The notes beneath the pieces are model-generated. The model was not told the origin of the DNA. It ran no database searches and was given only the letters and a program-made list of their open reading frames with translations. 64,000 nucleotides of DNA from Bacteroidales bacterium (GTDB lineage: Bacteria; Bacteroidota; Bacteroidia; Bacteroidales; UBA932), in NCBI GenBank assembly GCA_022647615.1, contig JALCKZ010000001.1, positions 918,178 through 982,177 of the forward strand. The letters run 5' to 3'. A program made the translations under genes and the position numbers. This document shows positions 3-63,926 of this stretch, in pieces. The number at the start of each line of letters is the position of its first letter. The first letter of the stretch is position 1.

Positions 3-1169
3 TTTATCGGCAGCGCTCATTATTCTGTAGCGCAGCTTAAGGATGTGAATTTCTTGAAGAAGTATGGACATGCTTCATCTATAATGGATTACGCTCGCTT
101 CAATTATGTTGCTGAGCCTGGTGACAATATTCCGCAGAACCTGTTGTTCCCTTGCATTGGACCTTATGACAAGTGGGCAATTCAGTGGGGCTATAAGAGG
201 TTGCCTAATTTTACTCCCGACAGTGAAATCCCTTACCTGAGCAATGTTGTTAAGGAGAAAATAAAGGATCCTATTTATCAGTTTGGAACAGAGAGCAGCG
301 TAAACGACCCAAGATTGCAGAGTGAGGACCTTGGTGCTAATCAGATGGAAACCAATGAAGTAGGAACGCGCAATCTTAAGTTTATCATGAAGCATTTGGT
401 TGAGTGGACCAACACTCCTAATGAGGGATATGATAATTTGCTGGAACTTTATGATCAGGTATTAGGACAGTATAAGAGATATAACAACCACGTAGCCAAA
501 TGGATAGGAGGTGTTTATCAGGAAGAAAAATATTCTGACCAGCCTGGTGCTCTTTATACTCATGTAGAGAAAGCAAAGCAGAAAGAGGCAATGGCTTATT
601 TAAAGAGAAACACTTTCTCTCCTCAGATGTGGCTGACTCCTAATGATATAATGGAGAAAATTGTCCGCCGTCCGGATGTTGTACTGGAGCAAATCTACAA
701 TTCAACTTTAGACAATCTTGTCTCACGACGGGTTCTTCTTAACTGCTATGAAGATGAAATTTCCAACGGGGCAAAGGCATATACTTTGAGCGATTATTTT
801 GCCGATATGAATTCTATGATTTTTGCACCTGCTGCTGCCGGAGCAAAAGAGGCATCAGCTCAGAGAATCATGCAAAAGGCTTATGTTAAGCATCTTGTAG
901 ATTTGTACACCGGAGCAAATGCAATGACATTTAGGATGGGAGACAGAACAATCGCTACAGGAATGGCTGCTGATAAAGACAATTCAGACATAGGTTCAAT
1001 GGTATATTATCAGCTGACACAGCTTCAGCAAAAATGTCTTGCAGCATCCGCTGCCGGAACAGTTGTGCAAAAAGCTCACTACAAATTTTTGTATGACAAA
1101 ATCCACAAAGCATTAACAGAGCAAAAGATAAAAACTGAAGGCTCTTCTGTAGTAAACCTTGGTTTCTAA
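3..1169 (+). CDS. Zinc-dependent metalloprotease, C-terminal part (5' end outside window)
   Basis: The reading frame is open from base 3, so the gene starts upstream; the GTG at 45 is not a true start. The stretch KKYGHASSIMDYARFNYVAE near the beginning matches the region after the metal site in the Bacteroidetes DUF5117/DUF5118 zinc metalloproteases (a large reprolysin-like family, usually above 800 residues). The HExxH motif itself is not in the window. The remaining 374+ residues are the helical C-terminal part, without membrane segments. The family is usually exported. The substrate is unknown. The gene carries one copy of the dispersed 9-mer TCCCGACAG at 215-223 (coding for PDS). The next gene converges on it, 4 bp away. 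Confidence 0.8.
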   Translation, partial: FIGSAHYSVAQLKDVNFLKKYGHASSIMDYARFNYVAEPGDNIPQNLLFPCIGPYDKWAIQWGYKRLPNFTPDSEIPYLSNVVKEKIKDPIYQFGTESSVNDPRLQSEDLGANQMETNEVGTRNLKFIMKHLVEWTNTPNEGYDNLLELYDQVLGQYKRYNNHVAKWIGGVYQEEKYSDQPGALYTHVEKAKQKEAMAYLKRNTFSPQMWLTPNDIMEKIVRRPDVVLEQIYNSTLDNLVSRRVLLNCYEDEISNGAKAYTLSDYFADMNSMIFAPAAAGAKEASAQRIMQKAYVKHLVDLYTGANAMTFRMGDRTIATGMAADKDNSDIGSMVYYQLTQLQQKCLAASAAGTVVQKAHYKFLYDKIHKALTEQKIKTEGSSVVNLGF

Positions 1170-1173
1170 AAAT

Positions 1174-1722
1174 TTATTTCCGCAATCTTTGGAAAAACTC
1201 CCAGAGAACAACTCCCACGGAGACGGAAACGTTGATTGAATGTTTGGTGCCGCATTGAGGAATCTCAATGACGGCATCACTCATATCTACCACAGACTGT
1301 TGAACGCCGGCAACTTCATTGCCAAATACAAGCGCATATTTGTAAAAAGTTCCTTCGCAACTTTTTACAAGATTCAGCTTGTCAAGCATAATTGAGCCTT
1401 CAGCCTGCTCTATGCTTATAATGGTATATCCTTGAGCCTTAAGCTTTTGTATGGCATCCGGCGTTTCATCAAAATGCTCCCACTCCATGGAAAGCTCTGC
1501 GCCAAGGGCGGACTTGTGAATTTCTGCGGATGGCGGAGTGGCGCAAATGCCGCACAGATAGAGCTTTTCTGCGGCAAAGGCATCTGCAGTACGGAAAGCT
1601 GCTCCAATATTAAACTGCGAGCGGATGTTGTCCAGCACCAGTACTACGGGAATACGAGGCACCTGCTTAAATTCCTCAACGCTAGGCCTGCCCAATTCAC
1701 TATTTAAAAGTTTCCTGCCCAT
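1174..1722 (-). CDS. TrmH/SpoU family RNA 2'-O-methyltransferase
   Basis: This is an AdoMet-dependent RNA ribose methyltransferase of the trefoil-knot SPOUT class. All three family motifs are visible: LDNIRSQFNIGAAFRTADAF (motif 1, with the catalytic Arg), FGNEVAGV (motif 2) and IPQCGTKHSINVSVSVGV (motif 3, knot and cofactor binding). I chose the start at 1722 (MGRKLLNSELGRPSVEEF), giving 182 residues. A longer frame opens at 1770, but a -7 promoter box lies at 1768-1775, so that ATG would be upstream of the transcript. The target RNA (23S rRNA or tRNA) cannot be told. It converges with the metalloprotease gene. Confidence 0.9.
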   Translation of the reverse strand: MGRKLLNSELGRPSVEEFKQVPRIPVVLVLDNIRSQFNIGAAFRTADAFAAEKLYLCGICATPPSAEIHKSALGAELSMEWEHFDETPDAIQKLKAQGYTIISIEQAEGSIMLDKLNLVKSCEGTFYKYALVFGNEVAGVQQSVVDMSDAVIEIPQCGTKHSINVSVSVGVVLWEFFQRLRK

Positions 1723-1767
1723 TAGTTTAAAATTGTTAAGAAACGGCCTTAAAAATGATAAGTTTTG

Positions 1768-1775
1768 CAAAGATA
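1768..1775 (-). promoter_or_regulatory. -7 box (TATCTTTG) of the TrmH-family gene
   Basis: On the minus strand the sequence reads TATCTTTG, an exact match to the Bacteroidetes -7 consensus TAnnTTTG. No TTTG is found 19 bp upstream, so only half of the promoter is recognised. Confidence 0.5.
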
Positions 1776-1942: not shown

Positions 1943-3220
1943 ATGAAACAGGATTTAGAGATATCTGAGTACATTAAAAGAGAGGAAAACCGCCAGATGC
2001 GTGGCGTTGAGTTAATTGCCTCTGAGAACTTTGTGAGCCCGCAAGTCCTTGCTGCGTTGGGTTCTGTATGCACCAACAAGTATGCGGAAGGTTATCCGGG
2101 TCACAGATATTATGGCGGATGCCAGGAGGTTGACAAGATTGAGCAGTGCGCTATTGACAGACTTTGCAAACTGTTTGACGCGCAGTATGCTAATGTTCAG
2201 CCACATTCAGGAGCACAAGCTAATATGGCAGTTATGCTGGCTTGCTTAAAGCCGGGTGATACTTTCATGGGATTGCATTTGGATATGGGCGGTCACTTGA
2301 CGCACGGTTCTCCCGTAAACATCTCAGGTAAAATGTTTCATGCTGTTCCTTACGGTCTTACTCCCGATGGTTATGTAGATTATGACCAGATGGAGAAGAC
2401 AGCTTTGGAGTGCAAGCCAAAACTTATAATTGGCGGCGCATCAGCATATTCCAGAGAGTGGGAGTGGGAGAGAATGAGAGCTATCGCTGATAAAGTTGGT
2501 GCTCTTCTTTGGGTTGATATGGCTCATCCTGCAGGACTAATTGCAAAGGGTCTTTTGAAGAACCCTGTAAAATATGCTCACATAGTAACTTCCACAACCC
2601 ACAAGACCTTGAGAGGCCCGCGCGGTGGTGTGATTTTGCTTGGTCAGGATTTTGAAAATCCTTGGGGAGAGAAAACTCCAAAGGGTGAAATTAAGATGAT
2701 GTCTGCAGTTCTTAACTCTTCCGTATTCCCTGGTATTCAGGGCGGTCCGCTAGAGCACTGCATTGCAGCAAAAGCAGTTTCATTCTTTGAGGATTTGCAG
2801 CCGGAGTTTAAAGATTATGTTGAGCAGGTTAAGAAGAATGCAAAGGTAATGGCGGATGAATTTATGAGCCGCGGTTACAAAGTTGTCAGCGGCGGAACAG
2901 ATAACCACATGATGCTGATAGATTTGCGCACCAAGTTCCCTGATATGACCGGTAAGGTTGTAGAAAACACTTTGGTTCAGGCGGATATCACGGTTAACAA
3001 GAACATGGTTCCTAATGATTCACGCTCTCCGTTCCAGACTTCAGGTTTAAGAGTAGGTACTCCTGCCGTAACAACCAGAGGTTTGAAAGAGAATGATATT
3101 AAGGAGATTGTAAGGCTTATAGATAAAGTTTTGTGCGACATCAGCAACCCTCAGGTTTTGGAGGAAGTCAAGCACGATGTTGGGCAAATGATGGCGGGAC
3201 GCCCTCTATACAACTGGTAG
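1943..3220 (+). CDS. glyA: Serine hydroxymethyltransferase
   Basis: This PLP enzyme converts serine and tetrahydrofolate to glycine and 5,10-methylenetetrahydrofolate. At 425 residues it has the normal bacterial length. Visible motifs are the N-terminal [26 protein letters not shown], and [14 protein letters not shown] with the PLP lysine at about residue 221. The ATG at 1943 is the first in frame. A TACATTTG -7 box lies at 1832-1839, giving a leader of about 100 nt that contains AT-rich and CG-rich stretches. A terminator follows the stop codon. It is a housekeeping gene with nothing odd in it. Confidence 0.97.
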
Positions 3221-3266: not shown

Positions 3267-3321
3267 AAGGTCGCGACAGATGGTCTGTCGGGATTATAAA
3301 GAAGACATTTAAGAAGACGAT

Positions 3322-5733
3322 ATGAATATAATTACAAAAACCATCCAGCTGAGTGATGGCAGAACAATTGAAATTGAGACCGGTAAAGTAGCCAAACAGG
3401 CTGACGGCGCAGTGGTTGTGAAGATGGGGGGCACGATGCTCCTGGCCACTGTTACATGCGCAAAAGACGCAGAAGAGGATGTTGATTTCTTACCTCTTCA
3501 GGTAGACTACAAAGAAAAATTCGCGGCAGCAGGAAGATTCCCCGGCGGATTTATGAAAAGAGAGGGGAAAGCTTCAGATTATGAAATTTTAATTGCCCGT
3601 CTGGTAGACAGGGCTTTAAGACCTTTGTTCCCGGAGGATTTCCACGCAGCAGTTTTTGTTAACGTGATGCTAATTTCCGCAGACAAAGATACACAGCCGG
3701 ATGCGCTTGCAGGACTTGCAGCAGCCGGTGCTCTTGCAGTAAGTGATATTCCTTTCCAGGGACCTATCTCTGAGGTTAGAGTTGCACGTAAAAACGGGCA
3801 GTACTGTATCAACCCTGCATTCTCAGAAATGACTGATACAGACCTTGATATAATGGTGGCCGCTACATCTGAAAACATAATGATGGTAGAGGGTGAGATG
3901 AATGAGGTTAGTGAAGACGTTATGCTGGGCGCAATCAAATTTGCTCATGAGGAGATTAAAAAGCAATGCGCAGTACTTAAAGAATTAACTGTCGCAGTAG
4001 GTAAAGAGACAAAGAGAACCTATTGCCATGAGACTAATGATGAGGCAGTTAAAGAGGCATGCCATAAATTCTGCTATGACAAGTGCTATGAAATAGCAAG
4101 CGCGGCAATGATGAAGCATCAGAGAGATGATGCGTTAGATGCTCTAAAAGAGCAGTTTATGGAGACTATTCCGGAAGAGGAGAGAGAAGATAAGACCGTA
4201 ATGGTCAACAGATATTTTGCAGCAGTTGAGAAAGAGGCAATGCGCGCCCTGATTCTTAATGAGAGAAAAAGAATGGACGGCAGAGGAACAAAAGACGTTC
4301 GCCCAATTTGGTGCGAGGTTGATTGCCTTCCTTGCGCTCACGGCTCTGCAATCTTTACAAGAGGTGAGACTCAGGCACTTGCAACTGTTACCCTTGGAAC
4401 AAAACTAGACATGAAATCTAAAGATGAGGTTTTGATTCAGGGCAGCGATGCATTTGTTTTGCATTACAATTTCCCTCCGTTTGCAACGGGCGAGGCTAAG
4501 GCTCAGCGCGGCGTAGGCAGAAGAGAGATTGGTCACGGCAACCTGGCTATGAGGGCTTTAAAGCCTATGGTCCCGACAGGTGAAGAAAATCCTTATGCAG
4601 TCAGAGTTGTTTCAGATATTTTGGAGAGCAACGGAAGCTCCTCAATGGCAACTGTTTGCGCAGGATGTCTTGCATTGATGGATGCCGGAATTCAACTTAA
4701 GAAACCTGTTGCAGGTTGTGCAATGGGTCTTATAGCGGATTCAAAGACAGGTAAATACGCAATCCTTTCTGATATACTTGGAGATGAGGACCATCTTGGA
4801 GATATGGACTTTAAAGTTGCAGGTACCAAGGATGGTATCACAGCAACTCAAATGGATATTAAGTGTGACGGTCTTTCAGAAGAGATTATGGCTGAGGCAC
4901 TTGCACAGGCACATGAAGCCCGCATGCACATCATGGGAGAGATGATGAAGACTCTTCCTGCACCGCGTCCGGACTTGAAGCCTTATGCACCTCGCATTGT
5001 ACAGTTGAGAATTCCTGGAGAGTTTATTGGTGCCGTTATTGGAACAGGCGGAAAAGTTATTCAGGAGATTCAGAAAGTTACCGGTACAACTGTCACAGTT
5101 ACAGAAGAAAAGCAGCCGGACGGAACAACAGTTGGAGCAGTTGATATCTTTGGAGAGAATAAAGAGGGTATGGATAAGGCACTTGCATGGGTTAAGGGTA
5201 TTACCACAGTTCCTGAGGTTGGTACAACTTATCACGGCAAAGTAGTTTCCATTCTTGAGTTTGGAGCATTTGTAGAAATTCTTCCGGGCAAAGAGGGACT
5301 TCTTCACATCTCTGAAATTGCATGGGGCAAGACAGAGAAGGTAGAGGACGTTCTAAAGGTTGGAGATGAAGTTGACGTCAAGCTTCTGGAGATTGATGAG
5401 AAGAGCGGCAAGATGCGCTTGTCAATGAGAGCATTACAGCCAAAACCGGAGGGCTATGTAGAGCCGGTTCGCAGACCTCGTCCGGAGGGTGGCCGTGGTG
5501 GTTTTGGAGGTCACGACAGACGTGATGACCGCAGAGGCGGCGATGACAGACGCGGCGGTTCCCGTGGAGGTTATGGTCATGACAGACGTGACGGTGACCG
5601 CAGAGATTCCCGTGACGGTGACCGCAGAGATTCCCGTGACGGTGACCGTGGTCCCCGCAGAGATTTCCATCGCGATGACCGCCATGATGATCACGCACCT
5701 GAAAGCCACACAGATAATGCTCCAACGGAGTAA
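3322..5733 (+). CDS. pnp: Polyribonucleotide nucleotidyltransferase (PNPase) with charged C-terminal tail
   Basis: PNPase is a phosphorolytic 3'-5' exoribonuclease. Domain order: first RNase PH fold (about 10-220), helical linker, second RNase PH fold (from about 318, [12 protein letters not shown], with the catalytic [15 protein letters not shown] near 488), KH domain ([15 protein letters not shown] from about 569) and S1 domain (from about 634, [20 protein letters not shown]). From about residue 714 to 803 there is an extra tail rich in Arg, Asp and Gly, with a repeated DRRDSRDG unit and RGG-like clusters. Typical PNPases end near 700-720. The tail is probably an intrinsically disordered RNA-binding or protein-binding segment; that is an inference. 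An inverted pair CGACAGA/TCTGTCG lies 30-50 bp upstream of the start. Confidence 0.97.
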
Positions 5734-5875: not shown

Positions 5876-7441
5876 TTAATCCATGAACGTGATGCTCTTA
5901 AACGTAATGCCATTAAACGTATTGCCGGAAACTCCCGTCTGGCCGGTCTTTAGCACAAGATCTATGTTCCCTGGAACTGTAAACCCAGACGCCGCTACAG
6001 TACCAAACGCTAAATACCAATTTGTATCCGTTATAATAGAACCAAATCTTAATTTAGTTAAATTAGGCATCCACGCCAAGGCGCGATCTGCTAAAGTGGT
6101 TACACTTGGGAAAAATAGTGACTCTATGCCTAAGCAATTAGTGAAAGTATAAGAAGGAATTGCCTTTACATATTCCAAAGAAACATACTTAAGGGCTCGG
6201 CAATTCATAAACATTTTTTCTGGAATTGTGTTTGAACGATTGTTTATATATGCAGCAAGAGTGGAGTCATAATAACTTACATTGTTGGCTTTGATAAATA
6301 TTGCCGGTACGTCTGTTGTAGACGCAGGGATTGTCTGAATTATTGTAACGCCTTTCGTTCTGACAGTAGCATTTCTACTATTAACGTTATACAGCGAATC
6401 CCTTAATCTCGTATCAGATACTGCTAATTGATTAATCCAAACTTCTGATTCTCCTAGATTGCCAATAACGCTGGAGGAACTAAGAACAGCAGCTTTTCCC
6501 ATAGGTTTATTCATGCTATAAGATTTGCCCGCCTCAAGTGATACTTTTCCGTCTGTCTTAATATAAAAAACATTGCTTGCTGTTTCAAGAAGGTCATTGC
6601 TTACTATACAATATAGGGGACCATAAGTACCCGGGATTGCTACATTACCATAAGAATATGAAAAATCATAATAACCCGTCGACAATCCCGAGACTCTGTA
6701 CTCATCATAGTTTAAATTTGACCACTTAATTTTGGTTTCACCACCCTCAATATAAACCGTTGCCTTACCTGTTTGTGGAAATTGGCCGTCGGCAGACAAA
6801 AGTGTCAAATACTTGGTGGCGTTATAACTTGCGGGGATAGGGCTACCAAATGTAAATTTTATTATTGCATTGGCGTTCTTGAAATTAAACAATGGGATGG
6901 TTCCGTTTGCTCCGGCCGTTGCACTGGCGTACATCAATGCACGTTGAGGTGAATATGCAGATGCAGATGTTTTTTCTCCCGGAACAATCTTCCAAACAGA
7001 ATGAAAAGGAACAAAAGTAAGGCTATTATTATTCCAATCAACAGTAGTGTTAGGGTCAGGGTAATAACATGCAAATAGCTGATCACCTGCTTTTGCAGAC
7101 AAACTTCCTTTGAACTCCCCAATCTTTGCATTATCTGTTCCGTTATAAGTAAAAGTCGTATTGTCATTTTGGGTATCATTAATGACATGAATCTTATCAT
7201 CGGTATGCCAGGTAACGTGAAAAATATTTCCATCCCCCGGTGTAAAATAAACCTTGGTCTGGTCATCCCCGCCTGTAGAAGCTCTGACAGTTGTAATCAC
7301 ATTTCCTTTTTCTCCCGACAGATCTGTTTTGGTTTCCGACAGTTCATCTGATTTTGCACAGGATGTTGCCGTCAGCGCCATAATCACCGCACCGGCAGCC
7401 ATTGCCGCCATTGCGTATCTTTTTGTAAATATCTTTTTCAT
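5876..7441 (-). CDS. Fimbrillin/BspA-like surface lipoprotein A
   Basis: A 521-residue exported lipoprotein. The signal peptide MKKIFTKRYAMAAMAAGAVI ends in a lipobox LTATSC with Cys near residue 29. The N-terminal half has the shared motif TKVYFTP...VTWHTDDKIHVIND...YNGTDNAKIGEFKG and resembles Bacteroidetes fimbrillin-like proteins. The C-terminal part has BspA-type leucine-rich repeats (MFMNCRALKYVSLEYVKAIP, TNCLGIESLFFPSVTTLADR) and the family end motif DLVLKTGQTGVSGNTFNG. I chose the start at 7441 because it matches the paralogs; an ATG at 7462 adds seven residues taken from a GTGCCACAA-like repeat. It lies 26 bp downstream of lipoprotein B, probably cotranscribed. Function in adhesion or binding is inferred from the family only. 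Confidence 0.85.
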   Translation of the reverse strand: MKKIFTKRYAMAAMAAGAVIMALTATSCAKSDELSETKTDLSGEKGNVITTVRASTGGDDQTKVYFTPGDGNIFHVTWHTDDKIHVINDTQNDNTTFTYNGTDNAKIGEFKGSLSAKAGDQLFACYYPDPNTTVDWNNNSLTFVPFHSVWKIVPGEKTSASAYSPQRALMYASATAGANGTIPLFNFKNANAIIKFTFGSPIPASYNATKYLTLLSADGQFPQTGKATVYIEGGETKIKWSNLNYDEYRVSGLSTGYYDFSYSYGNVAIPGTYGPLYCIVSNDLLETASNVFYIKTDGKVSLEAGKSYSMNKPMGKAAVLSSSSVIGNLGESEVWINQLAVSDTRLRDSLYNVNSRNATVRTKGVTIIQTIPASTTDVPAIFIKANNVSYYDSTLAAYINNRSNTIPEKMFMNCRALKYVSLEYVKAIPSYTFTNCLGIESLFFPSVTTLADRALAWMPNLTKLRFGSIITDTNWYLAFGTVAASGFTVPGNIDLVLKTGQTGVSGNTFNGITFKSITFMD

Positions 7442-7467: not shown

Positions 7468-9057
7468 TTAATCCATGAACGTGATGCTCTTAAACGTAAC
7501 GCCGTGGAATGTTGTCCCTGATATTTCGGTGCCGTTATTGTCTTTCTGGCCGGTCTTTAGTACAAGGTCTATTTCTCCTGCTGCATCTCTATTCCAAAAC
7601 ACGTTGTTTGTTCCCCAATCACCGTTCTCTAGAATAGAACCAAACATTATTTTAGTTAACTTTTTAGTGTTCTGAAATGCGTTAGAGCCAACTGTTGTGA
7701 CCTTTGGAAGGAATATTGACTGTAGTATGCTGCAATCTTGGAAAGCAGATGAAGTAAGTGCCGTTACTTTTCCCAAGGAAACATACTTAAGGCCTGAGTA
7801 AAAGGAAAACATAGAGGTGCCAATTGCTGTTGAATAATTGTTAATGTATGTACCTATTTTCGTACAAAAGTAATTCTCACGGGTAGCAGCTGCAGGATCT
7901 GGATTTGCCTGAATTATTGTAATGTTAGATGGTGTTGTATCAAGGTGCAGTGCTACATCTCCTATATACTGGGTAAAAGAAGCAGGTGCTTGGTTAATCC
8001 AAACCATCTTAGTGTTATCACTAACAGCGACGCTACTAGTGCCGTTGGTAGTTATAATAGCAGCTTCTTGTACTTCCTTGTTCAAGCCGTAAGATTTGCC
8101 CGCCTCAAATACTGTAAGACTGGATGATAAGTTACCATCTGCTTTTATGTAATAAACCTTGGTTGCAGTGGCAAGAGGCGCATCACTGAACAAGTAGTAT
8201 ATTGGTCCTATATCAGCCTTGGTGCTGGCGACAGTTCCGTCTGCATTATAAAACTGCATGCTAGGAATTACCAGTTGATTCCATGTGTTGTTTGCAGAGA
8301 GATTTAAAGTGCTTGCAGAATGATATTCAACAGCGCCAAATTTTCTTTCTGACCATTTTAACGTTGCTGCATCTCCGGTACCGGAAATGGTTGCGGTGCC
8401 TGCTATTGGCATCATGCCGTTTCCTGAAACAACTGTTATGTATTTGAATTCTTGTGCTGCCGTTCCGCCTGTTACGGTACTCTTGATGATGGCATTTGCA
8501 TTTTTAAAAGTGACAAGTGGAACAGCATTGTCTGACGCTACGGACGCACCGGCATACATCAGTGAATTATTTGTTGCATCTCCGGAGGTTGTGTTTCCGT
8601 CCCAAATTGCTTGGTCATTGGCAGTTGCACCTGTATAGCTCACAGATATTGCATTTTTAGCTGCGTCAACGGTGCCATTTGCATTATAGAAAGCATACAC
8701 CTGGTTTCCGGCGCTTGCGTTCAAACTGCCGCTGGTGTTTTTAAAACTTCCTCTTTGTGCATTGTCAGTACCATCATAAGTATAAACAGCAGAGGCATTT
8801 GTAGCATCATTGATTACAGTTATTGCATCACTTGTCTTCCACGTAACCTTCTTCCCGTTTGTAGTTGACCCGTCGGGAGCAATATAAACTTTAGTCAAAC
8901 CCTCATCAATATTTGCGTTGATGGATGTAATGGCATTTTTTGTTTTGGTTTCCGACAGTTCATCTGTCTTTGTGCAGGATGTTGCCGTCAGCGCCATAAT
9001 CACCGCTCCGGCAGCCATTGCCGCCATTGCGTATCTTTTTGTAAATATTTTTTTCAT
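7468..9057 (-). CDS. Fimbrillin/BspA-like surface lipoprotein B
   Basis: A 529-residue paralog of lipoprotein A with an almost identical first 28 residues and lipobox TATSC. The N-terminal module has TKVYIAPDGST, KKVTWKTSDAITVINDATNA and YDGTDNAQRGSFKNTSG. The C-terminal LRR module has SMFSFYSGLKYVSLGKVTAL and SAFQDCSILQSIFLPKVTTV, then the family end DLVLKTGQ...GTTFHGVTFKSITFMD. Near-identity of the signal region beside divergent bodies suggests gene conversion or recent duplication. It is preceded by the small-protein gene and the 126-bp element, in the same order as at the two plus-strand loci. Confidence 0.85.
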   Translation of the reverse strand: MKKIFTKRYAMAAMAAGAVIMALTATSCTKTDELSETKTKNAITSINANIDEGLTKVYIAPDGSTTNGKKVTWKTSDAITVINDATNASAVYTYDGTDNAQRGSFKNTSGSLNASAGNQVYAFYNANGTVDAAKNAISVSYTGATANDQAIWDGNTTSGDATNNSLMYAGASVASDNAVPLVTFKNANAIIKSTVTGGTAAQEFKYITVVSGNGMMPIAGTATISGTGDAATLKWSERKFGAVEYHSASTLNLSANNTWNQLVIPSMQFYNADGTVASTKADIGPIYYLFSDAPLATATKVYYIKADGNLSSSLTVFEAGKSYGLNKEVQEAAIITTNGTSSVAVSDNTKMVWINQAPASFTQYIGDVALHLDTTPSNITIIQANPDPAAATRENYFCTKIGTYINNYSTAIGTSMFSFYSGLKYVSLGKVTALTSSAFQDCSILQSIFLPKVTTVGSNAFQNTKKLTKIMFGSILENGDWGTNNVFWNRDAAGEIDLVLKTGQKDNNGTEISGTTFHGVTFKSITFMD

Positions 9058-9201: not shown

Positions 9202-9393
9202 TTATCCTATAAGTTTATTCTTATCCGGTTTTGGATTGTACATCTGGGTCAGCTCACCGCCGTCACCGTAATCAGGCGCTTCTCCGCTGGTGGCAATAAA
9301 GCCCTCAGACTCCATCTTAATAACGTTTGATTGAGGTTTTTCATAAGACTGCTTATGCATGCAGCTAGCTGTCGGGATTAAATTTCTTTTCAT
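9202..9393 (-). CDS. Small conserved protein of unknown function (cassette protein 1)
   Basis: A 63-residue protein, one of three relatives in the window. The N-terminal 25 residues vary among copies. The last ~36 residues are nearly invariant: ESEGFIATSG, then xxPDYGDGGELTQ, then MYNPKPDKNKLIG. There is no signal peptide or membrane segment. The conserved part is acidic and glycine-rich, and ends Leu-Ile-Gly. It is the first gene of a cassette with the 126-bp element and lipoprotein B. I do not recognise the family. It could be an assembly partner, a peptide precursor or a leader protein; none of these is supported beyond position and conservation. Confidence 0.75.
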   Translation of the reverse strand: MKRNLIPTASCMHKQSYEKPQSNVIKMESEGFIATSGEAPDYGDGGELTQMYNPKPDKNKLIG

Positions 9394-11372: not shown

Positions 11373-11411
11373 AAAAAAAATCCCGGCAGGGTATTATCCT
11401 GTCGGGATTAT
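11373..11411 (-). terminator. rpsO terminator built from an inverted TCCCGACAG-type pair
   Basis: On the minus strand AATCCCGACAGG pairs with CCTGCCGGGATT (one G-T-type position) around a 7-nt loop, followed by eight T. One arm is an exact copy of the dispersed 9-mer (11399-11407) and the other arm is a one-base variant. Confidence 0.8.
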
Positions 11412-11727: not shown

Positions 11728-11854
11728 AATTGCTAAGATTTTAATTATTTTTGTTACCCCTTTGAAGCTCCCGACAGTTTATCTGGTTGTCTTGCATATT
11801 TTTTGTACGCCAGCCACAGAGCATCTGCGGATATGCTTCTCTTTTTGGGGAGTG

Positions 11855-28909: not shown

Positions 28910-28937
28910 CTTCTTCACGACAGAAATTAATGTTGTA

Positions 28938-47161: not shown

Positions 47162-47295
47162 AGCGGAAAAAGCTACGCGGACCGCGTTGCTTTTTACAAG
47201 AAATATTAAAAAAGTCAAATATACGAATTGGCTTGACATCAGGCTTTTATGGTTGTATATTGCAAAACTGAAACAAGTAAAAAACTATCGGGATT

Positions 47296-48247: not shown

Positions 48248-49800
<1,553 letters not shown>

Positions 49801-49937
49801 AAGGAACAATAATTAATTGACTCACGACAGAAATATTATAGTATAGAGAGGAATAGAAGCGAGCAGTTAATAAGGAGTATAAAAATTGATGGGAGATAAT
49901 AACTGTCGGGATAATAAGTTGAATACAAATATTTTAT

Positions 49938-55591: not shown

Positions 55592-55684
55592 CTGTCGGGA
55601 GCCAAAAAATCTGCTCCTTCATTTTTATAAAATTAAACATTAAAAAATGAATTTCCAAAAAATAGCTTTTATAGCTCCCGACAG
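55592..55684. repeat. Inverted pair of TCCCGACAG 9-mers, 13-bp arms
   Basis: CTGTCGGGAGC at 55592 and GCTCCCGACAG ending at 55684 face each other across ~70 bp, in the gap between the MBL-fold gene and nifJ. Confidence 0.8.
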
Positions 55685-55749: not shown

Positions 55750-58700
55750 CTATTTGCCTGATAGTTTCTTGTAACCATCATAACGCAGCTTAGCAAACTC
55801 CTCTGTTAGAGAGAATAACTGCTCAGCCTCCTTAGGGAAGGTCTTAAGAAGAGATGCATATCTAACCTCGCCCTTGATGAAGTCTTGGAACTTGCTCCAA
55901 TCTGGCTCCTTGCTGTCCAAAGTGAACGGATTTGTGCCGGCAGGAACATCCGGATTGAATCTGTATAGGTGCCAATAACCGCACTCTACAGCTTTCTTCT
56001 CCTCTAGCTGGCTGTGACCCATTCCGGCCTTTAGACCGTGGTTAATACAAGGTGCATAAGCAATAATCAATGAAGGACCATTATGTGCTTCAGCCTCTTG
56101 AATAGCCTTTAGATATTGAGCTTGGCTAGAACCTGTTGCAACCTGGGCAACATATACATAACCATAACTCATAGCCATCATTCCAAGGTCTTTCTTTCTA
56201 ATCTTCTTGCCGCTGGTTGCAAATTTAGCAACTGCACCTGCAGGAGTAGCCTTGGATGACTGGCCGCCTGTGTTGGAATAAACCTCAGTATCAACAACTA
56301 GAACGTTTACATTCTCGCCTGAAGCAAGAACGTGGTCTAGTCCGCCGTAACCGATATCATATCCCCAGCCGTCTCCGCCGATAATCCACTGGCTTCTTGG
56401 AATGAAGCAATCTTTGTATTCATAAACTGCCTGGCATGCAGGGTGTTTGCAACCCTCAATCATAGGGATAAGCTTAGCTGCAACTTCTTTAGCAACCTCT
56501 ACATTATCCTTATTGTCCAGCCATTTCTGCATAAGCTCTTTAACTTCCGCACCTGTCTTTGCATCAGCGATAGCCTCTTCTACTCTCTTAACAAGAGTTT
56601 CTCTTAATCTTACAAAGCCAAGTCTCTGGCCAAGACCATATTCTGCGTTATCCTCAAACAATGAGTTAGCCCATGCAGGACCGTGACCGTTCTTGTCCTT
56701 GCAATAAGGAGAAGATGGGAATGAACCGCTGTAGATTGATGTACAGCCTGTTGCATTGGCAGCCATAATTCTGTCTCCAAACATCTGAGTGATAAGTTTG
56801 ATATAAGGAGTCTCGCCGCAACCTGCGCAAGCGCCTGAGAATTCAAACAATGGCTGAGCAAACTGAGAGTTCTTAGGGTTAGCGCCCTTAGGAGCAACAG
56901 TATCTTTATATCCAACCTTGTTGTGAAGATATTCAAAGTTAGCCTGCTCACCAAGCTGAGTCTCAGCAGGTTTCATAACAAGAGCTTTCTCCTTTGCAGG
57001 ACATACATCTGCGCAGTTTGCGCAACCTGTACAATCCGCAGGATCTACTTGCATTGTAAAGAAGTAATCTTTTAGATTAGCCTTGCCTTGTGCTTTCTTC
57101 AAACCCTTTGGAGCTTTAGCAGCCTCTGCCTCAGTCATTAAGTAAGGACGGATAGCAGCGTGAGGGCAGATGAATGCGCACTGGTTACATTGGATACAGT
57201 TCTCCGGATTCCACTCAGGTACGTGAGTAGCAACTCCTCTCTTCTCAAATGATGCGGTTCCTGCAGGAATCCAGCCATCGGGGAAGTCTACGAATGTGCT
57301 GACAGGAAGGTCATTGCCGCATTGTGCGTTAACAGGATCTGCAACTTTCCTAACCCAATCCGGAGCCATACGCTTGTAAGAATCAGGGACAAACTTGCAA
57401 GGAGAAATGTTCTTCCACTCAAATGGAATTTCTACTTTCTCAAACTCTACGCCTCTGTCAACAGCTGCATAGTTCATCTTGACAACGTTCTCACCCTTCT
57501 TGCCGTAGCTCTTCTCAATCATCTTCTTCATCTCTTTAACAGCATCCTCATAAGGGATAATGTTTGCAATCTTAAAGAATGCGCTTTGTAGAATAGAGTT
57601 GGTTCTTCCGCCAAGTCCAATCTCCTCTGCAATCTTAGTTGCATTGATGATGTAGAATGTAAGTTTCTTATTAACTATCTGGTATTTAATGAAATCCGGA
57701 AGTCTCTTGCAAGTCTCATTTGCATCCCATAAACTGTTCAACAAGAATGTGCCGCCTTTCTTGATGCCTCTTAAAACATCGTACTTTGTCAAGTATGATG
57801 GAACGTGGCAAGCAACAAAGTCTGGGGTTGAAACCAAGTATGGTGCAGGGATGATAGAATCTCCAAATCTTAAGTGTGAGCAAGTGTAACCGCCTGATTT
57901 CTTTGAATCATAATCAAAGTAAGCCTGGCAATATTTCTTTGTGCTCTCACCAATAATCTTAATAGTATTCTTGTTTGCGCCAACGGTACCATCTGAACCA
58001 AGTCCAAAGAACTTGCACTCATAAGTACCCTTTCTTGCCATAGGGATTTCCTCTTTCTGAGGCAATGACAAGAATGTAACGTCATCTACGATACCAATTG
58101 TAAATGAGTTCTTTGGCTCCTTAAGTTTAAGGTTGTCAAATACTGCAAAAATTTGCGCCGGAGAAGTATCCTTAGATGACAAACCGTAACGTCCGCCAAC
58201 AATCTTAATCTTGTTAGCAGATTCAGCAAGGGTAGTCTTAATATCTTCATATAGAGGCTCGCCGACAGATCCCGGCTCTTTGCATCTATCCAGAACTGCA
58301 ATTTTCTTTACAGTCTTAGGAAGAACTCTTAAGAAATATTTTGCAGAGAATGGTCTGTAAAGTCTAACTACAATGACTCCGACTTTCTCTCCCTTTGCTA
58401 CAAGGTAATCAACAACCTCTCTTGTGGTGTCTGTTACAGAACCCATCGCGATGATAATATTCTCAGCCTTAGGGTCTCCGTAATAGTCAAAAGGAAGATA
58501 ATGGCGGCCGCAAACCTCTCCAATCTCTCCCATATATCTTGCTACGATGTCTGGAACCTCTGTGTAATAAGGGTTTCTGGCTTCAGTCTCCTGGAAGTAA
58601 ACATCTGAATTCTGAGCGGTTCCCTTTGTAACGGGAGCGTTAGGATTAAGAGCTCTTTTTCTGAAAGCTGCCAAAGCCTTGGTACTTACCATCTTCTTTA

Positions 58701-59487: not shown

Positions 59488-60768
59488 ATGAAAAATACAG
59501 AAAGAATTCCTTTCAACAAGCCGTATTTTACGGGCTTGGAAGTGAAGTTTATAGAGGACTCCTTCAAAAGGGGCCAGACGAGCGGCAACGGGTATTATAC
59601 CAAGTTGTGCCAGCGGTTTTTTGAGGAAAAGCTTAGCAAGGGTGCCCTGGCCGTGGCTGGCAAAGACGGGGTGCTCCGCACTCCAAAGTGCCTGCTTACT
59701 ACCTCCTGCACGGACGCGCTGGAAATGTGTGCAATCCTGTCGGGAGTCAAAAATGGAGACGAAGTCATAATTCCTTCCTATACTTTTGTTACAAGTGCGC
59801 TTGCCTTTTCCAGGGAGGGGGCCAAGATTGTGTTTGCAGACAGCCGGCCTGATAACCCGAATATTGATGAGAGCAAATTGGAGGCGCTGATTACTCCGCG
59901 CACCAAAGTGATTGTGGTTGTGCATTATGCAGGCGTTGCGTGTGAGATGGACAAAATTATGGAGATTGCGCGCAGACATGGAATTATTGTTGTAGAGGAT
60001 TGTGCACAAGCAATTTACAGCTCTTATAAAGATAGACCGCTGGGAAGCATAGGGGACTTAGCGGCATTTTCATTCCATGAGACTAAGAATATCCAGTGCG
60101 GAGAGGGCGGTCTGCTGGTGGTTAACAATGAGAAGTTTAAGAATGATGCGGAGATTGTTTGGGAGAAGGGGACAAACCGCAGCCAATTTTTCCGCGGAGA
60201 GGTGGATAAATATGGCTGGGTTGGCAACGGCTCTTCTTTCTTGCCGTCGGAATATACCGCAGCATTTTTGTGGGGCCAGCTGCAGAAAGTGGAGGATATT
60301 CAGCGTAGGCGCAGAGAGCTGTGGAGAGCTTATTATAAGGCATTTAAGTATAATCCCGACAGATTTGCAAATAGTAATGTCTCTGCCGGCGCGGAAGGGG
60401 AGAATGTTTTGGAGAGTTATGGAATAAGAATTCCTGCTCTTCCGGTATATGCTTACAATAATGCTCATGTTTTTTACATTGTGTGCCGTTCTCTTGAGCA
60501 GCGTTCCGGTTTAATCAAGTATTTGGCTGACAATGGCATACATGCAACATTCCATTATCTTTCCCTGCACCGCAGCAAGTATGCCGTGCAGAACGGATGG
60601 GACGGGGTGAATCTGCCTCAGGCAGATAATTACTCAAATTGTCTTCTGCGCCTTCCGTTATATAATGCTATGCAACTAGCGGATGTTGAGGATGTTGTGA
60701 GCGAGACTGTGAATTATCTTAGAGAGTCTGAGGCTAAAGTTGCAGAAACTTCTCCTGCAGTTGTATAG
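59488..60768 (+). CDS. rffA: dTDP-4-amino-4,6-dideoxygalactose transaminase (WecE type)
   Basis: A 426-residue PLP aminotransferase of the DegT/DnrJ/EryC1 family. The start MKNTERIPFNKPYFTGLEVK and the pattern TTSCTDALEMCAILSGVKNG, EVIIPSYTFVTSALAFSREG are those of WecE/RffA. The PLP lysine is Lys200 in FSFHETKNIQCGEGG. It forms dTDP-4-amino-4,6-dideoxy-D-galactose, precursor of Fuc4NAc in enterobacterial common antigen. The next gene resembles WecF, which uses that sugar, so they likely make a surface glycan together. It contains two copies of the TCCCGACAG 9-mer (59737, 60354). Confidence 0.92.
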   Translation: MKNTERIPFNKPYFTGLEVKFIEDSFKRGQTSGNGYYTKLCQRFFEEKLSKGALAVAGKDGVLRTPKCLLTTSCTDALEMCAILSGVKNGDEVIIPSYTFVTSALAFSREGAKIVFADSRPDNPNIDESKLEALITPRTKVIVVVHYAGVACEMDKIMEIARRHGIIVVEDCAQAIYSSYKDRPLGSIGDLAAFSFHETKNIQCGEGGLLVVNNEKFKNDAEIVWEKGTNRSQFFRGEVDKYGWVGNGSSFLPSEYTAAFLWGQLQKVEDIQRRRRELWRAYYKAFKYNPDRFANSNVSAGAEGENVLESYGIRIPALPVYAYNNAHVFYIVCRSLEQRSGLIKYLADNGIHATFHYLSLHRSKYAVQNGWDGVNLPQADNYSNCLLRLPLYNAMQLADVEDVVSETVNYLRESEAKVAETSPAVV

Positions 60769-60786: not shown

Positions 60787-62088
60787 ATGATTCTGCATTT
60801 TGTAAATGACGAGAAAGTCATCAACCGCACGGTTGAGATGTTTGAGGAAGTATATCCCGGTCAGAATCTTTTTGTTGTCGCAAACCGGCTCCATCATCCG
60901 TTCAAATATGTCTCCGGAAAACCATTTATTTTTTCCCGCAGCGAGTTTTTTAAAAACGATTGTTTTAAGGATGTTTTTGGTTTGAGCGATTCTGCGGGGC
61001 TTCTTCCCGGCGGACGTATTGGAGAGGTTCATGCGGAGAAAAATGATAAAATTTTTATACACCTTCTTAATAAGCGGAAGATTAGCCTTTTGCGGTGCAT
61101 GGATTTGAAGCGTCTTAAAGCGTGCGGGGTTAAAATTTATTGGATTATCTGGGGACTGGATTTATACAATAATCTTCTTGAACCGGCCAGCTTTAAAATT
61201 TATGATATAGATTCTCTCTCAATTGCGGGGGTGCGTCCGTCAGTTGGAAATTTCTTTGCTTTTGTTGGAAGATTAAACAGAAAATTTTCTGCGCACATGA
61301 TTGTGCGGTTTGTGCAAAAGCATGTGGATTACATAGTTACAGACACAACAGAAAATGATTATGATTATCTTTTAAAATATTATCCTTCTCTTGCCGGCAA
61401 GCCGCGCAAGGATTTTTTCTATTATCCTGTTGATGTTGTTCTTGGTGAGGATTTGCTTAAGCGGCTGCTGAGGTCTGATAATGAGGGGAAAAACGAGGGC
61501 GGTGTTTGCAGCGGCAGTGGCGGCTCCGACAATGGTAATGGCAGTGGCAATGGCAGTGGCAATGGCAATGGCAGTGGCGGCTCCGGCAATATAATCATTG
61601 GAAATTCCGGTTCCGCATCAAATAATCATCTTTATGCAATGAGGAAAATTGCATCTCTCAATCTTGGCGCAAGAAAAGTTTATGTTCCGTTAAGTTATTC
61701 ATGTATAAAGCGTTATAAGAGGTGCGTGCTGGTAGGCGGGCGCAAGTTGCTCAGCGACAGATTTTGTCCGCTTTTGGATTTTATGCCTTTGGAGGAGTAC
61801 AATAAATTACAGCTGAGCATTGGAGTTGCCTTGTATGGAAACTGGAGGCAAGAAGCTGTCGGGAACATACTGGTATTTCTTTTTATAGGGTCAAAAGTTT
61901 TTCTTTCCAAGCGCAGTCCGGTTTATGAATGGGCGTTGGCTCATAGGCTGAAAGTCTTTGAGCTGGAGGGCATTACGCAAGAGCAGCTGGATACTCCGCT
62001 GACTGTTTCAGAGAAAATTTCTAACAGAGAAATTGTAAAAAATTTATTCACTAAAGAGCGGCTGCTCAAACTTATTAAGGATTTATAG
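60787..62088 (+). CDS. WecF-like Fuc4NAc transferase (glycosyltransferase family 56)
   Basis: A 433-residue GT56 protein: MILHFVNDEKVINRTVEMFE, KIYWIIWGLDLYNNLL, VPLSYSCIKRYKRCVLVGGR and LSIGVALYGNWRQEAVGNIL are typical. WecF transfers Fuc4NAc to the lipid-linked acceptor. At about 238-275 lies a repetitive Gly/Ser/Asn insertion (GSGGSDNGNGSGNGSG), encoded by short GGCAGTGGCAAT-type repeats that may vary in number. The gene follows rffA by 18 bp on the same strand. The actual acceptor in this organism is not known. Confidence 0.85.
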   Translation: MILHFVNDEKVINRTVEMFEEVYPGQNLFVVANRLHHPFKYVSGKPFIFSRSEFFKNDCFKDVFGLSDSAGLLPGGRIGEVHAEKNDKIFIHLLNKRKISLLRCMDLKRLKACGVKIYWIIWGLDLYNNLLEPASFKIYDIDSLSIAGVRPSVGNFFAFVGRLNRKFSAHMIVRFVQKHVDYIVTDTTENDYDYLLKYYPSLAGKPRKDFFYYPVDVVLGEDLLKRLLRSDNEGKNEGGVCSGSGGSDNGNGSGNGSGNGNGSGGSGNIIIGNSGSASNNHLYAMRKIASLNLGARKVYVPLSYSCIKRYKRCVLVGGRKLLSDRFCPLLDFMPLEEYNKLQLSIGVALYGNWRQEAVGNILVFLFIGSKVFLSKRSPVYEWALAHRLKVFELEGITQEQLDTPLTVSEKISNREIVKNLFTKERLLKLIKDL

Positions 62089-62913
62089 TTTATTAATTCC
62101 GTTTGGAGTCTGGATGATGTGATTGAGCTTTGTGTTGTTGCGGATTTCTCTGTTGTGTTGCAATGTCTCCGGCGTTTTGTAAGGGCGCTTGTGATCCAAG
62201 TGCAGCAGTATTGCTGAATAACGTATCTGCTTGGATTTCAATCCCATATTAAAGAGTCTCTCTCCAAATTCCCTGTCTTGTCCGCCGTAATGCATCTCTT
62301 CATTATAGCCGTTGACGGCAAGCATATCTTCTCTCCATCCTGAGGCATTGCAGCCGTTCCATGTTGCCTTTGCAGGCGTTATAAAATTCATGAATTTGCA
62401 AAAGGCGGGACACTTAATCAGCTTGGTGCACTTAAAATTCCATTTGAGCCCCTGCGCTTTTAACCATTTATAACTGAAGGCATTGCCAGATGCGACATCT
62501 GACATTGTGAGCTGCTTGCTAATATCCATCGGGAGCCTAAAATAGCCTCCAGACAGTATATAGTTTTTCTCCGCATAACGCTCATGAGTTGCAATGAAAT
62601 CTTTGCGGGGCACGCAGTCCTGGTCAGTAAAAATCAGGTACTCTGCGGTTGCCGCAACCAGAGCTTTGTTTAAAATTTGCGACTTCTGGAAACCTCTGTC
62701 TTCCTGCCAGATATGTTTGATTGGAAGGGTGCCGTGGTTGCTTGCCGCGGACTTTTCCGTGAAGCTCTCAATCAACTTGCGCGTCTCATCCGTGCTGCCG
62801 TCATCAGCAATCAAAATCTCATCCGCCGGCCTTGTCTGGTTAAGGTAACCCCACAAGGTTTTTTCCAGCCACGCCGGATTATTATACGTAGATATGATTA
62901 CTCCAATTTTCAT
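62083..62913 (-). CDS. Family 2 glycosyltransferase
   Basis: A 276-residue GT-A fold enzyme. VIISTYNNPAWLEKTLWGYL and ADEILIADDGSTDETRKLIE form the nucleotide-sugar site; LIFTDQDCVPRKDFI is the DxD-type motif. WNGCNASGWREDMLAVNGYN with GGQDREFGERL is the C-terminal acceptor part typical of the chondroitin-synthase-like branch. No membrane segments. It overlaps the end of the WecF gene by 6 bp, and abuts fabD. Confidence 0.9.
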   Translation of the reverse strand: MKIGVIISTYNNPAWLEKTLWGYLNQTRPADEILIADDGSTDETRKLIESFTEKSAASNHGTLPIKHIWQEDRGFQKSQILNKALVAATAEYLIFTDQDCVPRKDFIATHERYAEKNYILSGGYFRLPMDISKQLTMSDVASGNAFSYKWLKAQGLKWNFKCTKLIKCPAFCKFMNFITPAKATWNGCNASGWREDMLAVNGYNEEMHYGGQDREFGERLFNMGLKSKQIRYSAILLHLDHKRPYKTPETLQHNREIRNNTKLNHIIQTPNGINKL

Positions 62914-63791
62914 TATTGCTTACCGGAAATAATGGTGCCTTCCGGTGCAAGTTTCTTTACAAGTCCTTGAAGGACAGAGCCTGGCCCAAGTTCTACAAAT
63001 TCATTGGCTCCGTCTTTGACCATGTTTTCAACTATCTGAGCCCAGCGTACCGGATGGGTAAGCTGGATTAACAAGTTCTTCTTAATCTCAGCAGGGTCTG
63101 AATGTGGCTGTGCATCAACATTTTGATATACAGGGCATACGGGCTTGCTGATTTGTGCTTTCTCAATTGCTTCTGCTAGTTCTACGCGTGCTGGTTCCAT
63201 GCAAGGTGAGTGGAATGCGCCTCCAACTACCAATGGAACAACGCGTTTTGCACCCGCTGCTTTCATGGCTTCTCCTGCCTTTGCAACTGCCTCAATTTCA
63301 CCGCTTATCACAACTTGTCCGTGAGAGTTGTAGTTTGCTGCTACAACAATTCCGGGAGTCTGTTTGCAAATTTCTTCAATCTTTGCATCATCCATTCCAA
63401 GAACGGCGGCCATTGTAGATGGCTTAAGTTCACAGGCTTTCTGCATTGCAAACGCACGCTTTGCAACAAGCTGAAGTCCCTCCTCAAAACTCAAACCGCC
63501 GGCTGCCGTTAGTGCGGAAAACTCTCCAAGTGAGTGACCTGCAACCATATCAGGTTTAAAATCCGGAAGACACTTTGCAAGAGCAACGGAGTGAACAAAA
63601 ATTGCAGGCTGTGTAACCTTGGTCTGCTTAAGCTCTTCCGCGGTTCCCTTGAACATGATGTCTACAAGGTTAAATCCCAAAATATCATTTGACTCATCAA
63701 ACAGTTTCTTAGCCAGCGGATTACTGTTGTACAGTTCCTGACCCATTCCTGTAAATTGCGCCCCTTGTCCGGGGAAAACGTATGCTTTCAT
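62913..63791 (-). CDS. fabD: Malonyl-CoA:ACP transacylase
   Basis: A 292-residue FabD. It moves malonyl from CoA to acyl-carrier protein in fatty-acid synthesis. AYVFPGQGAQFTGMGQELYN is the N-terminal signature, VAGHSLGEFSALTAAG holds the nucleophilic Ser (near 90), and VGGAFHSPCMEPA the catalytic His. The last codon shares its base with the start of the glycosyltransferase gene (ATGAAAATTGG at 62913). The leader of about 135 nt carries tandem 29-bp repeats. Confidence 0.96.
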   Translation of the reverse strand: MKAYVFPGQGAQFTGMGQELYNSNPLAKKLFDESNDILGFNLVDIMFKGTAEELKQTKVTQPAIFVHSVALAKCLPDFKPDMVAGHSLGEFSALTAAGGLSFEEGLQLVAKRAFAMQKACELKPSTMAAVLGMDDAKIEEICKQTPGIVVAANYNSHGQVVISGEIEAVAKAGEAMKAAGAKRVVPLVVGGAFHSPCMEPARVELAEAIEKAQISKPVCPVYQNVDAQPHSDPAEIKKNLLIQLTHPVRWAQIVENMVKDGANEFVELGPGSVLQGLVKKLAPEGTIISGKQ

Positions 63792-63820
63792 ATTTTATAA
63801 AATTTTTCTTTTTATCCCGA

Positions 63821-63926
63821 CAGGACATTCCTGCCGCATTTTATTATAACAGGACATTCCTGTCGCATTTTATTATGACAAGACATTCCTGCCGCATTTT
63901 ATTGTGACAGGGCACCCCCTGCCGCA
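63821..63926. repeat. 29-bp tandem repeats in the fabD leader (3.6 units)
   Basis: Units begin CAGGACATTCCTG (arms CAGGA/TCCTG) and continue CCGCATTTTATTATAA. They lie between the TATCTTTG box and the fabD start. Beyond 63940 the sequence is another AT-rich promoter region and a GC-rich end with no gene. Confidence 0.85.

Follow-up and report, generated by a model that had tools for sequence, protein, structure and literature searches.

A probable DNA uptake sequence with several dialects in a genus of Bacteroidales

The 9-mer TCCCGACAG, abundant in the genome of a Bacteroidales bacterium (contig JALCKZ010000001.1), represents the most frequent version of a degenerate motif with the consensus TCNCGAYRG, flanked by T-rich sequence. 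Its sequence properties suggest that this motif most likely serves as a DNA uptake sequence, marking DNA of the same species for import, and we put the probability of this reading at roughly 60%. To our knowledge, the uptake sequences proven so far belong to two families of proteobacteria, each of which has type IV pilus systems, and in the proven cases the pilus includes a pilin that is sequence-specific. No uptake sequence of Bacteroidota was found in the literature searched. If the reading is correct, an uptake-like mark in Bacteroidota with at least four dialects and without pilus genes would mean that the ability to recognize own DNA during import had evolved anew, using different machinery. 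The host is a relative of rumen and gut bacteria, and the motif makes testable both the way in which Bacteroidota draw DNA through the outer membrane and the way in which a password present at a thousand places is able to change. In practical terms, DNA fragments supplied with the matching word might render these hard-to-handle commensals transformable.

The window, which is the whole 64-kb stretch of DNA analysed, contains 28 exact copies of TCCCGACAG between positions 215 and 63823, 15 on the forward strand and 13 on the reverse strand, compared with a mean of 0.12 and a maximum of 1 in 100 dinucleotide shuffles. The original prediction gave 27 copies (15 and 12 of the complement), of which the forward-strand count and the span hold while the reverse-strand count and the total are each one higher. 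With the region holding the CRISPR array (30,300-35,400) omitted from the ranking, TCCCGACAG is the top 9-mer in the window with its 28 copies. In the whole genome (2.23 Mb), it occurs 717 times (346 forward and 371 reverse; 0.32 per kb), while the control, TCCCGACAG read backwards, occurs 6 times (3 on each strand). In a 458.9-kb genome sample, it ranks first by raw count with 150 copies, against 1.7 expected from an order-3 Markov background, a count of the kind that had been proposed as a check. Enrichment over this background is 23- to 90-fold for the 9-mer and the two leading 8-mers. The word is thus a genome-wide mark, as had been predicted, found inside genes as well as between them and enriched well beyond a few repeat families.

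The unit of recognition was first taken to be the bare 9-mer and is corrected here to the degenerate core with its flanks. The tolerance of the core is sharply limited: of the 27 one-letter changes of TCCCGACAG, 22 stay near background and five clearly exceed it (position 3 to A, G, or T; position 7 to T; and position 8 to G), and the 150 perfect copies in the sample come close to the 181 for all 27 variants summed. The resulting TCNCGAYRG family has 375 members in the 459-kb sample, where 11.5 are expected, with a density of 0.82 per kb. T occupies 74% of the sites at position -6 and 63% at position +2 (n = 375). Past approximately 9 bases upstream and 7 bases downstream, the flanks hold at most 0.09 bits of information per position (n = 150), which indicates that no single repeat family accounts for the copies. 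HIP1 is a cyanobacterial octamer that is over-represented, and a comparable compositional or methylation-linked excess that arises without any import might be considered, since several species also show an excess of ATCGCGAT-type palindromes. However, the motif and its flanks are both asymmetric, and the 23- to 90-fold enrichment coexists with one-letter neighbors that mostly stay near background, which makes such an origin very unlikely.

The copies in the window occupy diverse contexts (strand given in brackets). One exact copy lies in pnp (4571..4579, +), where it spans the codons of V-P-T-G; among the 25 relatives listed, 0 have the word at this site. Two variants, TCACGACAG (5511..5519, +) and TCGCGATGG (5667..5675, -), lie in the variable end of this gene. 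Exact copies are found at the 5' ends of a BspA-type leucine-rich repeat (LRR) gene (7313..7321, +) and of further LRR genes (10973..10981, +; 15221..15229, -; 16999..17007, -), and in a formiminotransferase gene (54374..54382, -). Intergenic exact copies lie at 9369..9377 (-), 11769..11777 (+), 12772..12780 (+), 43490..43498 (-), 49903..49911 (-), 55592..55600 (-), 55676..55684 (+), and 63815..63823 (+). The other exact copies outside hairpins are at 215..223, 14840..14848, 16246..16254, 19346..19354, 22909..22917, 29498..29506, and 60354..60362 (all +) and at 20368..20376, 42522..42530, 59737..59745, and 61856..61864 (all -). The remaining variants are TCACGACGG (723..731, +); TCCCGATGG (2362..2370, +; 62526..62534, -); TCGCGACAG (18693..18701, 40914..40922, 40953..40961, and 45083..45091, all -; 51395..51403, +); TCACGACAG (25178..25186, 28915..28923, 31106..31114, and 49822..49830, all +); TCGCGATGG (58443..58451, -); TCCCGACGG (8870..8878 and 20326..20334, both -; 17166..17174, +); TCTCGACAG (12110..12118 and 22180..22188, both -; 25677..25685, +); TCACGATAG (21353..21361, +); TCGCGATAG (42183..42191, -; 53294..53302, +); TCCCGATAG (46262..46270 and 48468..48476, both +; 47285..47293, -); and TCGCGACGG (46420..46428, -). 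A Y1 transposase is encoded at 47296-48105.

Some copies are arranged as hairpins. The variant TCGCGACAG at 3271..3279 (+) forms the left arm to the exact copy at 3285..3293 (-), and an exact copy located right after an ORF stop (25040..25048, +) pairs with the variant TCCCGATGG at 25064..25072 (-) as the right arm. The exact copy at 11399..11407 (-) has an imperfect inverted copy and then a run of T after it, a terminator-like arrangement. Inverted pairs of the uptake sequence are known from Neisseria. Here hairpin pairs are in excess, with 6 pairs against 1.5 expected and 3 of 1,000 simulations as high.

Most of the 376 family copies fall within ORFs (295, in several frames and both orientations), with 80 outside and 1 at an edge, and the density is 1.74 per kb outside ORFs versus 0.71 per kb inside. 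Across 21 stretches, the density ranges from 0.40 to 1.10 per kb without clustering in one region, and even spacing was seen in one of two tests. One motif gap of 9.8 kb spans the CRISPR-cas region. Motif density is 0.76 per kb in ORFs that have a match in the sampled relatives and 0.69 per kb in those that lack one, so that this weak test did not reveal depletion in foreign genes. With replichores assigned roughly from the GC skew of the sample, the leading strand holds 185 of the 376 copies, so that there is no replichore bias; together with the genome-wide strand counts, this agrees with the earlier view that no strand is preferred. These distributions bear on the possibility of a Chi-like site, which would stop a RecBCD- or AddAB-type nuclease and start recombination and would be enriched through chromosome protection and repair. 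Chi is not known to combine degenerate positions with flanks rich in T. The likeness lies in short, abundant words with hundreds of copies spread genome-wide, and Chi motifs are also described in part of PMC8022716 as over-represented and somewhat different among related species. However, Chi is polarized on the leading strand with replication according to the same part of that paper, and E. coli Chi, given there as one site in 5 kb, is roughly four times sparser than the motif family with its 0.8 copies per kb. An excess in core genes, which is a property of Chi, was not seen either. A Chi-like role is disfavored because the motif has no polarity, and we regard it as quite improbable.

As judged from orthologous sequences, most of the examined coding copies arose in place through substitution. 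In 67 of 76 orthologous comparisons the alignment is gapless at the site, as at the V-P-T-G codons of pnp, and 70% of the site residues are unchanged. Indels occur at the site in the other 9 comparisons, versus 4 of 335 at control positions, and species differ on average at 3.37 of the 9 bases at sites versus 2.90 at controls, which suggests that sites prefer variable positions or that a few were insertions. This indel excess, the hairpins formed by some copies, and the Y1 transposase of the window would be compatible with a family of short repeats, mobile or REP-like, that transposases distribute. Such a family is already disfavored, and is the least probable explanation considered, since conservation ends about 9 flanking bases out, gapless comparisons predominate, and 295 of the 376 copies lie within ORFs in several frames and both orientations. 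The copies thus do not all lie in one mobile repeat, as the original prediction required.

By analogy, the core length, density, flanks, and dialects of the motif match the uptake sequences of Pasteurellaceae and Neisseriaceae, and the uptake-like density proposed originally is borne out, with clade dialects besides. As described in part of PMC1626085, the Pasteurellaceae uptake signal sequences (AAGTGCGGT in H. influenzae and ACAAGCGGT in A. pleuropneumoniae) likewise have a 9-bp core, a density near one copy per kb, flanks rich in AT, a large excess over chance of perfect relative to one-mismatch copies, and clade-specific types, of which Pasteurellaceae have two. The motif here differs in phylum and sequence, in tolerating changes at 3 of the 9 core positions, and in being T-rich on both sides, whereas the Pasteurellaceae sequences have two AT segments 3' of the core. 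In addition, no type IV pilus genes were found here in searches for secretin and pilus ATPase, and the likeness is one of sequence. With Neisseriaceae the motif shares altered versions of the word in related species, distributed by phylogeny; the dialects of that family have a CTG core in common (parts of PMC3630211). The minor pilin ComP binds the neisserial words, while the dialects here share TCN(n)CGAY and are not known to have a pilin receptor.

Genes for transformation are widespread in the genus. ComEC was found in 36 of 37 members, DprA in 22 of 23, and a ComEA-like HHH_3 domain in 37 of 37, with the best HHH_3 matches located in a frame of about 715 amino acids of another kind. The host genome contains all three (ComEC, a ComEA-like HHH protein, and DprA), but they also occur in other families and in genus members that show no motif enrichment, and thus do not discriminate motif carriers. 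The search for com and pil genes suggested with the original prediction had a divided outcome: none of the 61 genomes gave a secretin match (compared with 6 of 14 control genomes), and matches to the pilus ATPase (PilB/PilT) in the genus were weak and partial, with none convincing; the single match at the cut-off belongs to another family of the order. Uptake would consequently need another outer-membrane route, as in Riemerella anatipestifer, a member of Bacteroidota whose transformation, according to part of PMC8459023, involves ComEC, DprA, ComF, and RecA together with an HHH protein and with surface proteins that do not resemble known machinery. The term "uptake sequence" is absent from the main text of that paper. 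The host genome shares ComEC, the HHH protein, and DprA with Riemerella but lacks a match to its candidate surface protein, DUF5689, which is also without a match in genome G001 and absent from 7 of 10 dialect-B species; a DUF5689 protein is present in 19 of 37 genus members. The literature searched contained no transformation experiment for the genus. In the proposed mechanism, a putative surface receptor would bind the motif, reading the core along with the flanking T positions, so that DNA of the same species would be preferentially imported and recombined. DNA would cross the outer membrane without a pilus, by a Riemerella-like route, and pass into ComEC, and the motif would have spread by biased import and recombination.

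Sister species carry dialect words, namely TCCCGACRR, TCNCGATRG, and CTCNGCGAY, the last having the same letters with a gap one base longer, so that the dialects have TCN(n)CGAY in common with the spacing changed by one base. Some dialect is present in 28 of 37 genus members by our own cut-offs, and the signal is weak or absent in 9 of 37. The exact word reaches at least 125 copies in 12 of 39 members, CTCNGCGAY has 728 to 1,311 copies in 10 of 37 (controls, 67 to 120) and 371 copies versus 35 for the control in genome G014, and the T-flanked degenerate form marks five further members. Genome G008 shows no enrichment relative to controls for the exact word (7 versus 11), CTCNGCGAY (64 versus 56), or the T-flanked form (5 versus 9). 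A chromosome-organizing or nucleoid protein with thousands of binding sites might account for the protein-site-like core with its tolerated positions and flanking T, for the higher density between genes, and for the half-sites TC and CGAY at two spacings, which suggest one binding protein. However, some species of the genus, such as that of G008, have no enriched version of the words tried, others carry hundreds to a thousand sites of the shifted motif instead, and the sites are not clustered regionally. A housekeeping protein would require a joint change of all sites, which biased import would achieve by itself, and we consider such a protein unlikely. For an uptake sequence, the dialects may reflect drift of receptor specificity from TCCCGACRR to TCNCGAYRG and then to TCNCGATRG, with a drift that opened the gap by one base giving rise to CTCNGCGAY. 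Whether the genus has independently evolved a sequence-selective DNA import free of type IV pili, with a password that evolved stepwise, including the one-base TC/CGAY shift, and with new dialects that genetically isolate sister species, seems to us an even bet. Judged on the pnp tree, the dialects follow descent, with 8 changes needed for seven labels including the outgroup, compared with a mean of 16.5 after shuffling and 0 of 200 shuffles as low.

The 9-mer TCCCGACAG occurs 28 times in the window (15 copies on the + strand and 13 on the - strand), compared with 0.12 in shuffled sequences. In the whole genome, a single contig of 2,229,011 bases, it occurs 717 times and the reversed word only 6 times (3 on each strand), which bears out the over-representation claimed in the original prediction. 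A genome sample was composed of the window and 20 evenly spaced 20-kb stretches; k-mers were counted in the 458.9 kb that lie outside the CRISPR region (window 30,300-35,400, with which a variant at 31106 was also excluded). TCCCGACAG is the top-ranked 9-mer of this sample, with 150 copies, 90 times the order-3 Markov expectation, versus 181 copies for all 27 one-letter variants summed. The one-letter neighbors clearly exceeding background are those at positions 3 (any base), 7 (C to T), and 8 (A to G), and the remaining changes are near background. Since the tolerated changes are restricted to these three positions, the core is TCNCGAYRG, which was observed 375 times in the sample, against an expectation of 11.5 and at a density of 0.82 per kb, and would number approximately 1,800 genome-wide by extrapolation. 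The core is flanked by T at positions -6 (74%), -5 and -3 (55% each), and +2 (63%), and every position outside these flanks carries at most 0.09 bits. The T-rich flanks also accompany most variants at the tolerant positions, which therefore appear to be the same signal.

The exact copies are balanced between strands genome-wide (346 on + and 371 on -), and 185 of the 376 family copies in the sample lie on the leading strand, with replichores judged roughly from the GC skew of the sample. Chi sites are expected to be polarized (PMC8022716), and a Chi-like site is disfavored by this lack of polarity, in agreement with the earlier argument from strand balance. In total, 295 of the 376 copies fall in ORFs of at least 100 amino acids, in either orientation and several reading frames, 80 fall outside, and 1 is at an edge, giving densities of 0.71 per kb inside ORFs versus 1.74 per kb outside. 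Depletion in unconserved ORFs was not seen in a weak comparison with part-sampled relatives that placed many core genes in the "no match" class. Convergent pairs less than 20 bases apart, with at most two mismatches in the arms, number 6 (1.5 expected). Two overlapping head-to-head copies form CTGTCGCGACAG, found five times in the 464-kb sample (sampled stretches L091 at 4465, L092 at 6002 and 19131, L093 at 10709, and L102 at 10424), with a single variant, CCGTCGCGACAG (L103 at 1752). The first 100 exact + strand copies are spaced more evenly than in random placement, with a coefficient of variation (CV) of 0.80 (1.3% of simulations as low); the sampled family copies are not (CV of 0.96; 30% of simulations as low). 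The longest motif-free gap of the sample, 9.8 kb, spans the CRISPR-cas region of the window (31200-40676), where an array of about 52 repeats of 47 bases with 77-base spacing (approximately 31.2-35.2 kb) adjoins cas1 and a 1,372-amino-acid Cas9. TCCCGACAG is not part of the array, and the CRISPR repeat was rejected as its source.

The origin of the copies was examined at orthologous positions in relatives. In pnp (window 4571), the word spans the codons for V-P-T-G. It is absent at this position from every one of 25 listed relatives (out of 80), whose proteins are 74-82% identical, and the proline, preceded by V or I, is conserved in all of them. Of 76 comparisons of coding copies with sampled relatives, covering 54 distinct sites, 67 were gapless, and 70% of the site residues were unchanged, which indicates that most examined copies look like substitutions under protein constraint rather than insertions. 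Indels were found in 9 of the 76 comparisons versus 4 of 335 control positions, and base differences between species were slightly higher at the sites (3.37 of 9) than at controls (2.90 of 9), so that the sites either favor variable positions or include a few copies that originated otherwise. The mostly gapless alignments and the unconserved flanks disfavor a mobile repeat, and the original prediction's concern that all copies might lie in one such element is thus allayed. An IS200-like (Y1) transposase gene is present at window 47296-48105; it was weighed as a possible origin of a REP-type repeat but not retained.

Relatives in the genus set of 39 genomes were sampled for their own enriched words. 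Dialect A, TCNCGAYRG, is found in the source genome and G001 (448 T-flanked degenerate copies). Dialect B, TCCCGACRR, was characterized in detail in G009 and G010 and, in other members, from exact counts and small samples. Dialect C, characterized in detail in G003, G004, G011, G021, and G028, is mainly RTCGCNGAG, or CTCNGCGAY on the opposite strand, and dialect D (G019 and G030) comprises TCNCGATRG plus cTCCGCGATRG. At least 125 exact copies of TCCCGACAG are present in 12 of the 39 members. Whole-genome searches of 37 members found 728 to 1311 copies of CTCNGCGAY in 10 members (controls, 67 to 120) and 371 in G014 (control, 35), and five members (G013, G019, G024, G026, and G030) have an excess of the T-flanked degenerate form (53-181 versus 7-18). 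By our own cut-offs, 12 + 11 + 5 = 28 of 37 members bear a version of the motif, and the other 9 (G002, G005, G008, G015, G020, G031, G034, G035, and G036) show weak or no signal, with 75 exact copies versus 8 in G002. The samples of G002, G008, G020, and G022 contained no clear enriched word of the motif family; samples below 10 kb (G001, G005, G007, G011, G023, G028, and G033) were left out of one enriched-word analysis. The G015 sample in that analysis was dominated by a different repeat, unrelated to the motif, with GTTCAGATGC occurring 29 times in 14.3 kb (stretch L121, contig C1 1-14329). The palindrome ATCGCGAT, often lengthened to TATCGCGATA, is also enriched in samples of G003, G004, G011, G021, G028, and G019 and may represent either a pair of overlapping half motifs or a signal of its own. 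Strand balance in relatives is of limited value because their contigs are unoriented; it is uneven in G006 (96 and 60 exact copies). Among 80 named loci around pnp, 72 were at least 10 kb long and were pattern-scanned. At least 10 have a motif excess, the clearest six being L010 and L011 for CTCNGCGAY and L012, L013, L014, and L018 for TCCCGACRR; the remaining four are L050, L056, L059, and L061, three of them GC-rich. No comparable enrichment was found in 24 other families of the order, represented by one genome each, in which the highest counts were 59 versus 23 for the exact word and 252 versus 134 for CTCNGCGAY.

The four dialects are one family. Dialects A and B are distinguished by their sets of tolerant positions; dialect C retains TC, the free base, and CGAY but adds a G between the two halves and has a C before the TC; and dialect D has both spacings, with the leading C in 81% of its longer form (n = 21). 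In a pnp tree of 23 genus members and 3 outgroups, A, D, and C fall into one clade (100/100), with B on branches outside and D as a grade below C, the C clade itself being supported at only 81/65. With labels that we assigned on the basis of the counts and samples (seven, including one for the outgroup), the tree requires 8 changes, versus a shuffled mean of 16.5 (0 of 200 as low). The simplest reading is that B would have given rise to A, A to D, and D to C, the motif weakening in some lineages.

The combination of core, density, flanks, clade types, and phylogenetic dialects matches uptake sequences, and we consider it probable (roughly 0.6) that the motif works like one. Pasteurellaceae uptake sequences have a 9-base core that recurs close to once per kb, is flanked by AT-rich sequence, and comes in clade-specific types (PMC1626085), all of which are paralleled here, and the distribution of dialects by phylogeny resembles that in Neisseriaceae (PMC3630211). 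Binding sites of a nucleoid protein could also be proposed, but about a thousand sites would then have to change together, whereas biased import and recombination would shift copies genome-wide unaided. We do not assign the motif to the uptake sequences themselves; a search for their pilus feature by way of secretin and pilus ATPase gave nothing convincing.

The transformation genes that the original prediction had suggested looking for were recovered in part: ComEC, a ComEA-like HHH protein, and DprA are present, but neither a secretin (no match in 61 genomes, compared with matches in 6 of 14 controls) nor a convincing pilus ATPase (only partial weak family matches in the genus) was found. 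Of 37 genus members, 36 encode ComEC. It is a 445-amino-acid ORF in the source genome, and its frames across the genus are short, at 357-479 amino acids with one of 575 (cf. locus L294, 1033-2370), compared with 690-771 amino acids in 13 of the 23 other families that gave a match. A 394-amino-acid ORF that begins with a hydrophobic stretch contains ComEA-type HHH motifs, stronger HHH_3 matches lie in a different frame of about 715 amino acids, and DprA was found in 22 of 23 members searched. These genes also occur in motif-less members and other families, which indicates that uptake is permitted, not proven. Riemerella anatipestifer, also of the Bacteroidota, is transformable with ComEC, DprA, ComF, RecA, an HHH protein, and unfamiliar surface proteins (PMC8459023), so a non-pilus-like route exists within the phylum. 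Its DUF5689 surface protein had no match in the source genome. A DUF5689 protein of approximately 340 amino acids occurs in dialect C species and in the D species G019 and G030, and not in A (carriers: G003, G004, G011, G014, G017, G019, G021, G027-G030, G032, and G033). It was rejected as the receptor, since its distribution does not track the motif, and may mark a clade or reside at the cell surface. The open-access literature searched, covered by top entries for larger result sets, yielded no uptake sequence from Bacteroidota. If uptake is confirmed, the phylum, the word, the receptor, and the spacing change among dialects would be new, the kind of system being already known.

RNA families were also considered and rejected, as the window has no Rfam match at gathering level and no tRNA gene. 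A cluster at window 5876-18495 contains six BspA-type leucine-rich-repeat paralogues, in four of which TCCCGACAG falls within the 5' end.
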